Shown here piece by piece: positions 39,065 through 44,137 of a stretch of 64,000 nt of DNA; position 1 is the stretch's first letter, and each line of letters opens with the position of its first letter. Source of the DNA: Taibaiella chishuiensis (GTDB lineage: Bacteria > Bacteroidota > Bacteroidia > Chitinophagales > Chitinophagaceae); NCBI RefSeq assembly GCF_003014535.1, contig NZ_PYGD01000003.1, positions 124,001 through 188,000 of the forward strand, in the 5' to 3' direction. The translations under genes and the position numbers were made by a program. The notes beneath the pieces are model-generated. The model had not been told where the DNA came from. It worked only from the letters and a program-made list of their open reading frames with translations, and did not search any database.

Positions 39065-40348
39065 TTATTTTTTCATGAGCCATTTGCCCACTTCTTTAAA
39101 CGTTATTTTTTTGCCATACATCAGGATGCCGGTACGGTAAATCTTGCCGGCCATCCAGGTAGTGCCCAGGAAGCCGCCCACCAGCAATACTGCCGACAAG
39201 GCCAGTTGCCAGCCCGGTACGCCAAAGGGAATACGGGCCATCATAACGATAGGGGAGGTGAGCGGGAACAGGCTGCCGAAAAGCGCCAGGCCGCTATTGG
39301 GGTCTTTAATGGCCGACGACATGATTACAAAACCCAGGATGATGGGCAGGGTAATGGGCATGGTAAGCTGGTTGGACTCCTGCGGATCTTCGTTGACCAG
39401 GCTGCCCACTGCGGCGAATAAAGAGGCATAGAGGAAATAGCCGCCCAGGAAGTAAAACAGGAACCACAGCGAAATCTGCAGCCAGTTAACGCTATGCAGC
39501 ATAGCCGAAATACCCGCGGCAACATCGTTGCCGGTATTGGCCTGTGCTGCTGCCTGGTTCATGACCTCGGGGTTGGAAGCAAAGCCTGCACCCATAGATC
39601 CTGCCAGTACCGTCATGGCGATCACGATCAGCGCGATCCAGATCAGGAACTGCGTAAGGCCTACCAGGGCTACGCCGATTATTTTACCCAGCATGAGCTG
39701 GTAAGGTTTTACCGAGCTTACAATGATCTCGGCAATACGGTTGGTCTTCTCTTCCATAACGCTGCGCATAACACTCATACCATAAAACAGCATGAACATA
39801 TACAACAGCAGGCCGCAGGCATAACCGATGCCGAAAGCGGCTTCGTTGCTGGTAGCCTTGCCTTCCACATTGGGTTGTACCGAAATGGTCTCGTCCTGGA
39901 GGAAGCGCAGTTTATCTTTATCCACGCCGGCTTCCTGCATCCGGTCCTGCATCACGATATCGTTAAGCTGGTTCTCGATATCTTTCTGGGCTTCCATACC
40001 CAGTTGTTTTTCGCTGAAGAGGTTAAACTTCGCTTTTTCGTTTTTATTGAAAGGCGGTATATACAATACGGCATCGTACTGTTCTTTGGCCAGGCTTTGC
40101 TTCAGGGTTTCGAGCGGGGTATGCTCAAAGGTGAAGCTGATCTTTTTGGAGCTTTCCAGCTTCTGGTCAAAGGTTTTGCTTTCGTCCAGTACGGCTATCT
40201 TTTTCTGGTCGCCGGAGCTGAGCGAGATACCGGCTACCAGCGCCACCATGCCCACCAGCAGTACTGGTATCAGCAGGGTAAGTATAATAAAGGAACGCTT
40301 GCGTACCCGGGTCAGGTACTCTCTTTTTATAATAATGAGTGTTTTCAT
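39065..40348 (-). CDS. ABC transporter permease, NatB/ABC-2 type
   Basis: A 427-residue membrane protein of the ABC-2 exporter type. A first helix (about 17-40) is followed by a large extracytoplasmic domain (about 45-180) and a block of five to six helices towards the C-terminus. The MEEKTNRIAEIIVSSVKPYQLMLGKIIG stretch is characteristic of NatB-like permeases, and NEDPQESNQLTMPITLPII follows. The gene pairs with the ATPase just upstream. The substrate is unknown; sodium, peptides and antibiotics are all known for the family. Confidence 0.9.
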   Translation of the reverse strand: MKTLIIIKREYLTRVRKRSFIILTLLIPVLLVGMVALVAGISLSSGDQKKIAVLDESKTFDQKLESSKKISFTFEHTPLETLKQSLAKEQYDAVLYIPPFNKNEKAKFNLFSEKQLGMEAQKDIENQLNDIVMQDRMQEAGVDKDKLRFLQDETISVQPNVEGKATSNEAAFGIGYACGLLLYMFMLFYGMSVMRSVMEEKTNRIAEIIVSSVKPYQLMLGKIIGVALVGLTQFLIWIALIVIAMTVLAGSMGAGFASNPEVMNQAAAQANTGNDVAAGISAMLHSVNWLQISLWFLFYFLGGYFLYASLFAAVGSLVNEDPQESNQLTMPITLPIILGFVIMSSAIKDPNSGLALFGSLFPLTSPIVMMARIPFGVPGWQLALSAVLLVGGFLGTTWMAGKIYRTGILMYGKKITFKEVGKWLMKK

Positions 40349-40394
40349 TGTCTTGCTTGTTGTGTTGGAAATGGGATAACGACGGTATTAGAGC

Positions 40395-41315
40395 TTATGC
40401 CACGAATTCCCGTGCAGCCGGAGTGCCCTGTACTAAACGGATAAAGATATCGTTGAGCGAAGGCAGGATCTCTTCGAAAGCAAGAATGTTGTTGCCCTGG
40501 TTGATATAATGCAGCAGTACCTGGTTGGCCGGCACATTTTCATTCAGGTGGAACATCAGTTTGTTCTGCTCTTGTTTCAATACCTGTATGTCGGCAGGCA
40601 GGGGGGCATCGGGATTGCTGAGCGTAAGGCTGAAGAGGTTTTCCTTAAAGTCCTGCTTCACCTGTTTTACACTGCCATCCAAAATCTTTTTGCCCTGGTT
40701 GACGAGGATGATCTGGTCGCAGATCTCTTCTACCTGCTCCATACGGTGCGTACTGAAGATAATGGTAGTGCCTTCCTGTGCCAGCCGGAAGATCTCGTCT
40801 TTCAGTACATTGGCATTTACCGGGTCGAGGCCGCTGAAGGGTTCGTCGAGGATCAGCAGTTTGGGGTTATGGATCACCGTGGTTACAAACTGCAGCTTCT
40901 GGCTCATACCTTTACTCAGGTCTTCCACTTTTTTATTCCACCAGGTGGTCATGTCCAGCCTTTTGAACCATTGTTTGCTGCGGAACTCGGCTTCACTTTT
41001 CGAAAGGCCTCTCAGCTGGGCCAGGTATACCGCCTGTTCCCCGATCTTCATTTTTTTATACAACCCTCTTTCTTCGGGCATATAACCGATCTCGCCGATG
41101 TGACGGCCGGAGTCGAAAGGCTCGCCGTTGAAGAGAATATTACCGGAGTCGGCGTAGAATATGCCGGTGATCATGCGCAGCAAGGTGCTTTTGCCCGCGC
41201 CGTTAGGACCGAGCAGGCCAAAAATGCTGCCCGGCGCGATATCGAAACTGATGTCGTCGACGGCGCGTTGCGTGGCATAATATTTTTTCAGGTGCTGGAC
41301 TGAAAGTAGAGCCAT
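40395..41315 (-). CDS. ABC transporter ATP-binding protein, NatA type
   Basis: A 306-residue ATPase. Walker A is GLLGPNGAGKSTLLR, the signature is DLSKGMSQKLQFV, Walker B is LLILDEPFSGLDPVN and the H-loop is IIFSTHRMEQVEE. An extra C-terminal domain of about 90 residues (after 215) is typical of NatA-like exporters. It forms one unit with the ABC-2 permease gene 46 bp downstream. Confidence 0.93.
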   Translation of the reverse strand: MALLSVQHLKKYYATQRAVDDISFDIAPGSIFGLLGPNGAGKSTLLRMITGIFYADSGNILFNGEPFDSGRHIGEIGYMPEERGLYKKMKIGEQAVYLAQLRGLSKSEAEFRSKQWFKRLDMTTWWNKKVEDLSKGMSQKLQFVTTVIHNPKLLILDEPFSGLDPVNANVLKDEIFRLAQEGTTIIFSTHRMEQVEEICDQIILVNQGKKILDGSVKQVKQDFKENLFSLTLSNPDAPLPADIQVLKQEQNKLMFHLNENVPANQVLLHYINQGNNILAFEEILPSLNDIFIRLVQGTPAAREFVA

Positions 41316-41860: not shown

Positions 41861-42207
41861 ATGGGCTGCAAATTACTTAAACTGTTTTACAGCAGAAAGT
41901 CCGGTTTCCTGCACCGCTGCAAAAGGTGGTATTTACGGGCCCGCGGGCAGATTTTCGACCTCCCGCAATAGATTATGTACCGTCAGACCATCGGTTGGTA
42001 ACGGGTAACGGCGCGTTGGTACAATATTTTTTCTTTAAACAATTGTTTATTAGTTATTTGTAATTACGTGATTATTTTTCACTAAAAAACACAAAAAGAT
42101 ATTATATTTATCGCTTTAATGCGATATTTGTTTTTTACGATAAAAAGGAGGTAATCCGAAAATCCTTAAACAGAGTAGGAATCTTATAAACTAAAAAAAG
42201 AAGACCA
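41861..42207. other. Intergenic region upstream of the MNIO RiPP locus
   Basis: About 350 bp, AT-rich from 42020 on. It holds the inverted repeat TATCGC (42109-42114) / GCGATA (42121-42126) with a 6-nt loop, which could be an operator or a small hairpin. No clear TTTG/TAnnTTTG promoter pair is seen, though the promoter for the precursor must lie here. No ORF is supported. Confidence 0.5.
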
Positions 42208-42438
42208 ATGAAAAAGAACACACCTGTAAAACTGACCCTGACCCGTAAAACTGTAATGAGCCTTTCTGCACAGCAGAATGTAGCCGGTGGTATCGATGTT
42301 GCTGCAAGCGATCTGAAAAAGTGCGTACCCCTGACTGTAGCTCCGCCACAGTGCTGCCCGGCCTGCCGTTCCGGTGCTAACGCCACTGTAGCTAAAGAAT
42401 TCTGCATGGATATCCTCGACGGATTAAATAACCTGTAA
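42208..42438 (+). CDS. Cys-rich RiPP precursor peptide of an MNIO system
   Basis: A 76-residue peptide. The first 28 residues are a Lys/Thr/Leu-rich leader (KLTLTRKTVMSLSAQQ) ending in AGG, much like leaders of Bacteroidota RiPPs annotated as class I lanthipeptide-type. The core carries Cys39, Cys49, Cys50, Cys53 and Cys66 in a KKC...QCCPAC...FC arrangement. A DUF692/MNIO gene, whose family members rearrange or oxidise peptide cysteines, follows 87 bp downstream. No lanthipeptide dehydratase or cyclase is present. The assignment as MNIO substrate is inferred from position and Cys content. Confidence 0.85.
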   Translation: MKKNTPVKLTLTRKTVMSLSAQQNVAGGIDVAASDLKKCVPLTVAPPQCCPACRSGANATVAKEFCMDILDGLNNL

Positions 42439-42462
42439 TCTGCTGCTACGCCTGAAAGAGTT

Positions 42463-42508
42463 ACAGAGCCTGGGTTGTTGGATGCGACCAGGCTCTGTGA
42501 TTTTTTTT
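42463..42508 (+). terminator. Strong terminator between RiPP precursor and MNIO gene
   Basis: ACAGAGCCTGG (42463-42473) pairs perfectly with CCAGGCTCTGT (42488-42498), followed by GA and eight T. It sits only 24 bp after the precursor stop and before the MNIO start, so most transcripts should contain the precursor alone. Confidence 0.88.
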
Positions 42509-42525
42509 GTACCCCCTGTAAAAAC

Positions 42526-43425
42526 ATGCCTATGAAAACGCCGACCGGGATAGGGCTGATGTATAATATGGCCCTGGATCCTTACTTCGATCTCTACCCC
42601 GAAACCATCGACTACGTGGAAATAACCCCCGATATCCTGTTGCAGGACAAAGGGCCCGGGCAGCCCGGGCGGTTTGTACAGGCGCCGCGCGAATGGGATA
42701 CTGTGCGCCGGCTGGCGCGCCGCTGGCCTATGGTAGCGCATCATGTCGGGTTTTCGCTGGGTACCGACGGCTATTTCGACGAGGAATACCTCGAAAATGT
42801 AATACAGATGCACCGGGAATTCGGCTTTCACTGGCACAGCGACCACCTCTCCTACTCCAAACTGATCGAAGAAGGGCAACCCGAGTACAATACCTGCCTG
42901 GCCTTGCCGATACCCTACGATTCGGAATCGCTGGAGATGCTGATCAAAAAGACGCGTTATATCCGCTCGCGTATCGATCTGCCGTTCTTTATTGAGAACA
43001 ATGTTTATTTTACCGAGATCCCCGACGAAGAGTTTACGGAAGGTGAATTTGTAAAGGCACTATGCACAAGAGGCGACTGTGGTTTCCTGCTCGACCTGCA
43101 TAACGTGTATGTCAATGCCGTCAATTTTAATTTCGACCCTATTGCCTTTATCGACAGCCTCGATCTAAGCATGGTAGAGGAGATTCATATAGCGGGTGGC
43201 GACGAAATAGGCGGTATGCGTATGGACTCGCATTCGGGGCCTTGCCCTGAAGTGGTATGGGAGCTGCTCGATTATGTATTGCCCAGGGCGCCCAGGCTGC
43301 GGGGCATCACCTTCGAAGTGGATGAATCGTACCTGCCGCTGATCGGTTTTGAAAGCGTGGCCCGCGAGTTGCAGCGTGCCCGTGCTTTGTGGGATTTACA
43401 TAAAACGCCCAGCCATGTCGCTTAA
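42526..43425 (+). CDS. DUF692/MNIO-family multinuclear iron oxidase, RiPP maturase
   Basis: A 299-residue TIM-barrel protein of the MNIO family (relatives MbnB and TglH), which uses two or three iron ions and oxygen to alter peptide residues, mostly cysteines. Likely metal ligands, by family pattern, are His72/His73 (MVAHHVGFSLG), Asp106 and His107 (HWHSDHLSY, where Glu-His is more usual), Glu157/Asn158 (FIENNVY), Asp190 and Asn193 (LLDLHNVYVN), His221 (EIHIAGG), Asp234/His236 (DSHSG) and Glu264 (TFEVDES). The start at 42526 comes after the terminator; 42532 is also possible. Its last 11 bp overlap the next gene. Confidence 0.9.
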   Translation: MPMKTPTGIGLMYNMALDPYFDLYPETIDYVEITPDILLQDKGPGQPGRFVQAPREWDTVRRLARRWPMVAHHVGFSLGTDGYFDEEYLENVIQMHREFGFHWHSDHLSYSKLIEEGQPEYNTCLALPIPYDSESLEMLIKKTRYIRSRIDLPFFIENNVYFTEIPDEEFTEGEFVKALCTRGDCGFLLDLHNVYVNAVNFNFDPIAFIDSLDLSMVEEIHIAGGDEIGGMRMDSHSGPCPEVVWELLDYVLPRAPRLRGITFEVDESYLPLIGFESVARELQRARALWDLHKTPSHVA

Positions 43426-44137
43426 GTCGTACCAACTGGCGCTTGCCGCGATCGTGGCCAGTCCGCAAAAGGGTAAGGCCTATGCCGCCGACCCTGCACT
43501 GCTGGAGGCAGAGTTTGAGCTTACGCCCGCCGAGCGCGACCGGCTGCTGTATATGCTGCAGCAAAAGGGCATGCGTATTAACTATATGCTGTACCAGACC
43601 AACCGGATGACACCCCTGTCCATCTTTATGCCCTATACCTTCAAGGTATTGCGGCCACAACTGCTCGGTATCGTACAGCAATTCTGGAAAGTATATCCCA
43701 AAACGGCTTTCCAGTTTAAAGAAGAGATCGTTTTGTTCAGCGATTTTTTAAAAGAAAAAATAGACCGGGATGGATTGGATGCCCCATTCCTGCGCGACGT
43801 GATCCGCCTGGAAGACGGGTTGAACGATATCCGTTTCGGTATGCAGCCGCCGGCCGCTCCGGGCATTTTCAGCCTGCATCCTGCCGTGCGTGTGCTGCGC
43901 ACCACGGTCGATCCCCAATTACTGGCCGAAGCCATGGTTACTTACGACCATACCGCGGCGGCCCCCCTTATACCGCCAGCCGGCGGACCTTTCCTGATGC
44001 GGTACATTACCCGCCTCGAACTTTTCCCGGTTACCGCTGCCCTGGCTGCGGCATTGGAGCAGGGTAACCTGCCCGAGGAAAGCATGCCCCAGGACCTTGT
44101 CGACCAGGGCCTGGTACTTTGCGGTGCGCTGCAATAG
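43415..44137 (+). CDS. Putative MNIO partner protein (substrate recruitment)
   Basis: A 240-residue cytoplasmic protein, starting inside the MNIO gene end and so coupled to it. Residues of about 40-100 have a pattern like the DUF2063/MbnC-type partner proteins: an INYMLYQTNR segment, then LRPQLLGIVQQFWKVYP and FSDFLKEKI. Partners of this kind are required by several MNIO enzymes to present the leader. The C-terminal half (about 150-240) is not recognised. The family assignment is by pattern only, while the link to the MNIO enzyme is strong from the overlap. Confidence 0.7.
   Translation: MSLKSYQLALAAIVASPQKGKAYAADPALLEAEFELTPAERDRLLYMLQQKGMRINYMLYQTNRMTPLSIFMPYTFKVLRPQLLGIVQQFWKVYPKTAFQFKEEIVLFSDFLKEKIDRDGLDAPFLRDVIRLEDGLNDIRFGMQPPAAPGIFSLHPAVRVLRTTVDPQLLAEAMVTYDHTAAAPLIPPAGGPFLMRYITRLELFPVTAALAAALEQGNLPEESMPQDLVDQGLVLCGALQ

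Follow-up and report, generated by a model that had tools for sequence, protein, structure and literature searches.

The DNA at positions 42,208 to 44,137 of the window (the whole stretch of 64,000 nucleotides that was analysed) holds an intact and conserved locus, best read as a minimal MNIO-type RiPP locus in which a TglI-like partner would present the segment C50–G56 of a small precursor to the MNIO, and this enzyme would oxidise the Cys pair of that segment with iron and O2. The probability assigned to this reading is about 0.68. On sequence grounds, the locus represents a new sub-branch of the MNIO RiPPs, in which the carriers differ while the candidate target motif is well defined. MNIO enzymes keep giving unexpected peptide chemistry, and a bottleneck lies in finding out which precursors and which residues they act on. 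Across the seven loci compared here, the likely target of this clade narrows to two Cys in a seven-residue motif.

Organization of the locus

The three genes, which encode a Cys peptide, an MNIO, and a partner protein, are located on the + strand of contig C3 of a 5.84 Mb genome, with tsaE on the − strand on one side and an ffh-like gene on the other. The features are as follows:

42145..42181, + strand: DUF805b cis-regulatory RNA (RF02914); Rfam gathering match, 45.4 bits
42208..42438, + strand: precursor peptide, 76 aa, five Cys
42208..42291, + strand: leader, residues 1–28, ending in AGG, class I lanthipeptide-like; NF038153 E 0.017 (below cut-off); aligned with four Taibaiella paralogs
42355..42375, + strand: conserved core motif C50-P-A-C53-R-S-G56, proposed modification site; C..C[RL]SG is found upstream of 7/7 clade MNIO genes
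42454..42507, + strand: terminator/attenuator hairpin in the gap between precursor and enzyme; z −5.1
42532..43425, + strand: MNIO (DUF692) maturase, start ATG 42532 or 42526; PF05114, alignment, AlphaFold2 model similar to TglH 8hci_B
43415..44137, + strand: partner, helical domain and RRE-like C-terminal part, TglI-like; AlphaFold2 model similar to TglI 8hci_A

Most of what the preliminary description of this DNA had reported was recovered. The precursor has 76 aa, a Lys/Thr-rich leader ending in AGG, and five Cys (residues 39, 49, 50, 53, and 66), and the strong terminator that follows it consists of a hairpin and a T-run (−34.4 kcal/mol, with none of 200 shuffles as stable). The MNIO with its metal ligands is also clear (PF05114, E 4.2e-53; motif residues invariant in six aligned sequences), as is the overlapping partner gene, whose start overlaps the end of the MNIO gene by 11 nt. 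The statement that lanthionine machinery is lacking holds near the locus but not genome-wide, as contigs C1 and C7 together carry PF04738 dehydratase matches at three sites.

Two groups of neighbouring genes were considered as cluster members and rejected. The ABC-2 transporter pair at 39065-41315 and tsaE are taken as housekeeping context, because the loci of T. koreensis (L009) and T. helva (L010) have similar ORFs, compared by eye, at corresponding positions but on the opposite strand. A gene for a Fur-family regulator (PF01475) lies between tsaE and the precursors in T. koreensis, and a similar ORF appears in the ORF list of T. helva; this regulator is placed outside the window's set, since its closest counterpart in the window's genome shares only 35% identity and lies on another contig. 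Upstream of the precursor, a short inverted repeat with a T-run is present at 42109-42126, although such sites are no commoner than in shuffles.

Distribution of the gene set

The order precursor–MNIO–partner is maintained in all seven related loci, in which the MNIO and partner genes overlap or nearly touch. When the MNIO was used as query (E 1e-40), matches appeared in 6 of 294 genomes sampled from a larger family group, while an MNIO alignment (E 1e-50) found 3 of 396 genomes of the order, adding G569, and 1 of 395 genomes of the phylum, which was the window's own. These family, order, and phylum sets are overlapping samples, and the total amounts to seven genomes of one family, with L009 and L010, which share coordinates with G101 and G001, counted once each. 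An MNIO of any kind (PF05114, E 1e-10) occurs in 39 of the 294 family genomes, which indicates that the clade of the window, with 6, is a minority there. In the fourth genome of the genus (G174), no match to the MNIO was found at E 1e-40, and other genes lie upstream of ffh.

The pairing of precursor, MNIO, and partner, which had been put forward from the window alone, is upheld by this conserved order and by the distribution of the precursor itself. A profile built from the five Taibaiella precursors returned 22 rows in the 294 genomes, five of them full-length (E 5.1e-25 or better), and all five are encoded beside a window-type MNIO; the full-length relatives are thus not precursors that occur mostly apart from such an enzyme. 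The other 17 rows are leader-only matches or noise, and C..C[RL]SG was absent from all frames of these 17 loci, one of which (L056) has the looser CTPCQSG. In the open-licence PMC literature, no paper was found that combines MNIO, precursor peptide, and 'CRSG', and Chitinophag- appears together with MNIO in PMC12636315 alone. The search found no characterised member of the window's MNIO clade.

The MNIO enzyme and its partner

The MNIO scores 180.7 bits against PF05114 (gathering cut-off 25). In the ORF list this gene begins with TTG at 42475, but the aligned relatives point to the ATG at 42532 (or 42526) as the start. Counting from the codon at 42529, H71, D105-H106, E156, D189-x-H191-N192, H220, D233-x-H235, and E263 are invariant in six aligned MNIOs; these are presumably the MNIO metal-site motifs, and by sequence comparison they match TglH and 3BWW. 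For HvfB, the available text of the source names N175, D242, and H244 as putative third-site ligands (PMC13419390). The AlphaFold2 model (mean pLDDT 83.1) finds TglH as its best structural match (8hci_B, E 2.1e-21), followed by 8hi7, 3bww, and MbnB. Scores against NCBIfam models are all far under the cut-offs, with 149/310 bits for BufB (NF050167), 135/360 for HvfB, 108/400 for ApyH, and 55/600 for ChrH (NF050165), and the MNIOs of three relatives show the same picture. The enzyme is 69–70% identical to those of T. koreensis and T. helva and has a length of about 298 aa, versus 363 positions in the ChrH model.

The seven MNIOs form one group in both trees that were built (94/97 in a 27-row tree, 87/96 in a 16-row tree), so that, as far as the alignments go, the support for their common grouping is good but not decisive. 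The group stands apart from the bufferin-type enzymes of the family in both trees and from ChrH-type enzymes in the 27-row tree. The bufferin-type enzymes make up their own clade (100/99 and 100/100), with group labels that are partly the author's judgement, as only L064 of the nine 'buf' rows was scored (BufB 368 bits, cut-off 310). No viral relatives of the MNIO were found among 83 pattern matches, and plasmid MNIOs were rejected as relatives, the best 20 of 355 records being only 27.7–30.9% identical (five were examined). Two further MNIO genes, 488 and 516 codons long, encode an additional C-terminal part (L088 793-2259 and L089 718-2268; no precursor was identified). On a Burkholderia stagnalis plasmid (L093 1716-1949), a small Ala-rich ORF in which CAA units recur precedes an MNIO gene and a methyltransferase gene.

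For the partner protein, no Pfam family scored above its cut-off (best MobC_2, E 0.21), with no match to DUF2063, and ApyI (NF050149, E 0.029, below cut-off) is the sole NCBIfam model matched at E ≤1. A structure search with its AlphaFold2 model (mean pLDDT 76.7) retrieved TglI (8hci_A, E 3.5e-4), the next entries, 3dee (E 0.41) and MbnC (E 1.4), both being not significant. According to the models, enzyme and partner both resemble TglHI most in fold. Searches with the partner of G569 against plasmids and with that of G212 against alignment A2 gave no match.

Precursor peptides and the C-x-x-C-[RL]-S-G motif

T. koreensis and T. helva encode two tandem precursors each, with the same leader type as that of the window. 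Cys39, 49, 50, 53, and 66 are invariant in all five Taibaiella precursors, which contain five to seven Cys, and Cys39, 49, and 66 are conserved within Taibaiella only. The carriers of the other loci look different: G125 and G279 encode short peptides with two copies of C-P-x-C-R-S-G-F, and the carrier in G161 and G569 is a scaffold some 80 aa long that contains GCQACLSG and no cysteines besides the two of the motif. Pro is not conserved at motif position 2 (Gln in G161 and G569), and a BLASTP comparison of the precursors of the window and G125 aligns them at the motif only. C-x-x-C-[RL]-S-G is the sole detected feature common to the precursors of the seven loci. The earlier proposal that the QCCPAC/FC cysteines are all modified can therefore be narrowed, given the restriction of Cys39, 49, and 66 to Taibaiella and the two-Cys carriers of G161 and G569, which provide simple test substrates.

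A six-frame scan of 25 sequences (the window and 24 of 97 loci, 243,473 nt) detected C..C[RL]SG 11 times, in every case ≤600 nt upstream of one of the 7 MNIO genes and on the same strand; as the motif was defined on these loci, this count tests specificity, that is, rarity elsewhere, and is not a prediction. Over 102 non-viral sequences (534,371 nt, with overlaps), the same places were found plus one more in L101 (G058). At position 1537 (+) of L101, CQTCRSG lies within a stretch that matches the scaffold profile (E 0.004) and contains two stops. G058 shows no PF05114 match at E 1e-10, and this motif match may be due to chance or represent a decayed copy. In the 294 genomes, the scaffold profile found the G058 stretch in addition to G161 and G212, both of which had been used in building it.

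The resemblance of the leader to lanthipeptide-type leaders, which had been noted before, does exist, but it stays below the curated cut-off of NF038153 (15.3 bits, cut-off 22, for the window); two of the four other Taibaiella precursors give E 0.012 and 0.0097, and the remaining two no match. Of the seven loci, only those of Taibaiella show a leader of this type. As to hydropathy, the one property compared here, the highest 12-residue value is 1.12 in nine precursors of the clade versus 2.08–2.38 in four Chr-type precursors.

G212 may connect the chryseobasin-type site with the CxxC[RL]SG site. Its scaffold is homologous to those of L029 (E 1e-6) and L018 (E 0.002), each value coming from a single comparison, and its site reads CLTCGLGG, which is the CxxCGxG pattern of chryseobasins. 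Its MNIO is placed with ChrH-type enzymes in the 27-row tree (92/92, long branch) and is unplaced in the 16-row tree. At L087 1091-2767 (G212), an MNIO gene is accompanied by a separate downstream gene and the CLTCGLGG precursor.

RNA elements around the precursor gene

In five of the seven loci (the window, L009, L010, L019, and L017), the gap that separates the last precursor from the MNIO gives a better fold than its shuffles (z −5.1, −4.1, −3.6, −3.2, and −4.5), with 2/200 shuffles as good as the hairpin in L019 and 0 in the other four. No hairpin beyond shuffles was detected in this gap in L018 and L029 (z −1.4 each), or between the tandem precursors of L009 (z +0.9).

The DUF805b RNA, which stops 26 nt short of the start codon of the precursor, is the only match in the window's 64 kb to reach Rfam's gathering score; it comprises a 4-bp stem and an inferred UCC/GGA pseudoknot. 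It precedes the precursor in five of the seven loci, reaching the Rfam gathering score in three (the window, L019 5219-5251, and L017 5141-5173) and remaining below it in L009 and L010 (E 2.5e-4 and 7.4e-4). No match was obtained in L018, L029, and L087, or in 20 other loci (119,402 nt). The core pattern appears in at least 120 viral-contig stretches (L102-L221), which indicates that the element is not specific to this RiPP. Of 125 elements (the viral matches listed plus L045, L019, L017, and the window), 124 are followed by an ATG frame no more than 200 nt away; among the matches listed, 113 of the 124 frames start 15–29 nt after AGAGTAGG. Counting only distinct viral elements among the matches listed, 84 of 85 have a frame and 73 a start 15–29 nt away. 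In 87 of the 89 distinct elements among the matches listed, the nucleotide preceding CCGAAAA is complementary to the one following AGAGTAGG, versus a mean of 61 and a maximum of 71 in shuffles that ignore relatedness, and this pairing supports the pseudoknot, which is absent from the Rfam structure line. Overall, the core looks like a general start-codon-proximal element. In L045 (G223), the DUF805b core also lies some 25 nt ahead of the gene for a 62-aa Cys peptide with a GG leader (1492-1680, − strand; NF038153 27.9 bits, cut-off 22). No papers on the DUF805 RNA were found in the open-licence PMC literature.

Proposed mechanism and alternative explanations

In the proposed pathway, the TglI-like partner would recognise the 76-aa precursor through its leader and present the C50-P-A-C53-R-S-G segment to the multi-iron MNIO, which, to judge from the aligned carriers, most likely oxidises the Cys50/Cys53 pair using iron and O2. 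A reaction involving both residues is favoured because the motif pair is the sole Cys feature common to all carriers and its spacing is fixed. The best guess for the product would be a four-electron oxidation in which both cysteines take part, resembling most closely the thioether macrocycle and heterocycle that ChrH/DybH install on CPxCGxG. In the available text of the sources, chryseobasin is described with a thioether from the thiol of the first Cys to the beta carbon of the second, together with an imidazolidinedione, the mass change being −4 Da when methylation is left aside (PMC10214503, PMC12636315). Chr-like chemistry is not implied by ancestry, since the ChrH score of the MNIO lies below those of BufB and HvfB. 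After modification, a C39-peptidase exporter whose gene lies at another place in the genome would probably remove the leader, cleaving behind GG. This step is suggested by a C39-peptidase ABC transporter gene located one small ORF away from the partner gene in G125, the only locus with such a neighbour (the other flanks were inspected by eye), and by one strong and one weak C39 match (119.6 and 29.2 bits) elsewhere in the window's genome. The hairpin may keep the level of the enzyme below that of the precursor, while the DUF805b element may tune precursor translation.

The main alternative for the product is a Cys-derived metal-binding heterocycle. The MNIO would convert one or both motif Cys, each singly, into a 5-thiooxazole or an oxazolone-thioamide, and the result would be a copper-binding peptide comparable to bufferins, oxazolins, or methanobactin. 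This is possible but somewhat doubtful. BufB and HvfB are the top-scoring NCBIfam models, the Cys pair (and the five to seven Cys in Taibaiella) would suit a metal site, a Fur-family regulator is encoded upstream of the L009 precursors, and the order C-[RL]-S is faintly like the C-[AG]-S of methanobactin. Nevertheless, the precursor lacks the EGKCG motif and, judged by hydropathy only, a hydrophobic signal-like N-terminus, and the bufferin-type enzymes form a separate clade. It is less probable still that CxxC[RL]SG is an unmodified docking motif and that the MNIO changes another residue. The precedent is ApyA, whose conserved Cys motif is, in the available text of PMC11117315, essential yet unmodified, so that the motif could act as a docking site here; moreover, ApyI is the one model that the partner recalls. 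Against this stand the lack of any other feature seen to be common to the carrier types and the two precursors that hold the motif twice.

That the precursor is a lanthipeptide substrate, with a dehydratase acting in trans and the MNIO as a bystander, is highly improbable. Its leader resembles those of class I lanthipeptides and dehydratase matches exist on C1 and C7, but a class I lanthipeptide locus was rejected because the leader reaches only 15.3 of the 22 bits of NF038153 and the dehydratase matches are on other contigs only. Furthermore, the motif adjoins an MNIO with other leaders too, this leader type being exclusive to Taibaiella among the seven loci, and C..C[RL]SG occurs in 0/17 of the leader-only or noise loci. 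Returning to the oxidised Cys pair as the preferred reading, its boldest form is a portable warhead, in which one MNIO clade would install a new two-Cys cross-link, related to but unlike the hydantoin macrocycle of chryseobasin, on a heptad that evolution would have transferred to three or more dissimilar carriers, including a borrowed lanthipeptide-type leader. This extension is tentative; if true, it would define a new RiPP class. The earlier suggestion of a new product class may still apply, with the qualification that the motif resembles the known chryseobasin site CPxCGxG.

Comparison with known systems

Bufferins and oxazolins are suggested by the top-scoring models of the window's MNIO, BufB and HvfB, but the enzyme reaches less than half of both cut-offs (149/310 and 135/360), the precursor has no EGKCG and, by hydropathy, no signal-like N-terminus, and the partner has no DUF2063 match. 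Among solved structures, those of the pearlin enzymes TglHI come nearest to the window's MNIO (8hci_B) and its partner (8hci_A), although the precursors are unlike. TglH acts on a C-terminal Cys of a carrier peptide. The aminopyruvatide enzymes ApyHI share the combination of an MNIO and a separate RRE-type partner; they differ in acting on a C-terminal Asp, according to the available text of PMC11117315, and the window's MNIO scores 108/400 bits to ApyH. By description only, a likeness can also be drawn with adjamnio-7, whose putative precursors are presented in the available text of the source as signal-peptide-less with a CxxC motif, the represented member being from Novilysobacter (PMC12452194).

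Chryseobasin/DybA (ChrH subfamily) offers the closest parallel at the site itself, as an MNIO also acts on a C-P-x-C-x-x-G heptad in Bacteroidota (CPACRSG in the window versus CPACGMG). The window's own genome encodes a ChrH-type MNIO at C3:210322 (NF050165 380 bits, below the cut-off of 600), and L035 (9315-11315) and L008, on C3 of the own genome but outside the window, some 43 kb downstream of its MNIO, contain short precursors ending in CPPCGRG, CPACGMG, and CPGCGMG before a ChrH-type MNIO; this is a chryseobasin/DybA-like locus. Contrary to the C-terminal CPxCGxG of chryseobasins, CPACRSG is internal in the window's precursor, and across the clade the motif is internal or repeated, with [RL]S in place of Gx. 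By hydropathy, the window's set also lacks a signal-like N-terminus; it includes a TglI-like partner, and its MNIO belongs to another clade, is shorter than the ChrH model, and scores 55/600 bits to it (NF050165). With a chryseobasin-like heptad paired with an enzyme of another clade, one can ask directly whether the motif or the ancestry of the enzyme dictates the chemistry.
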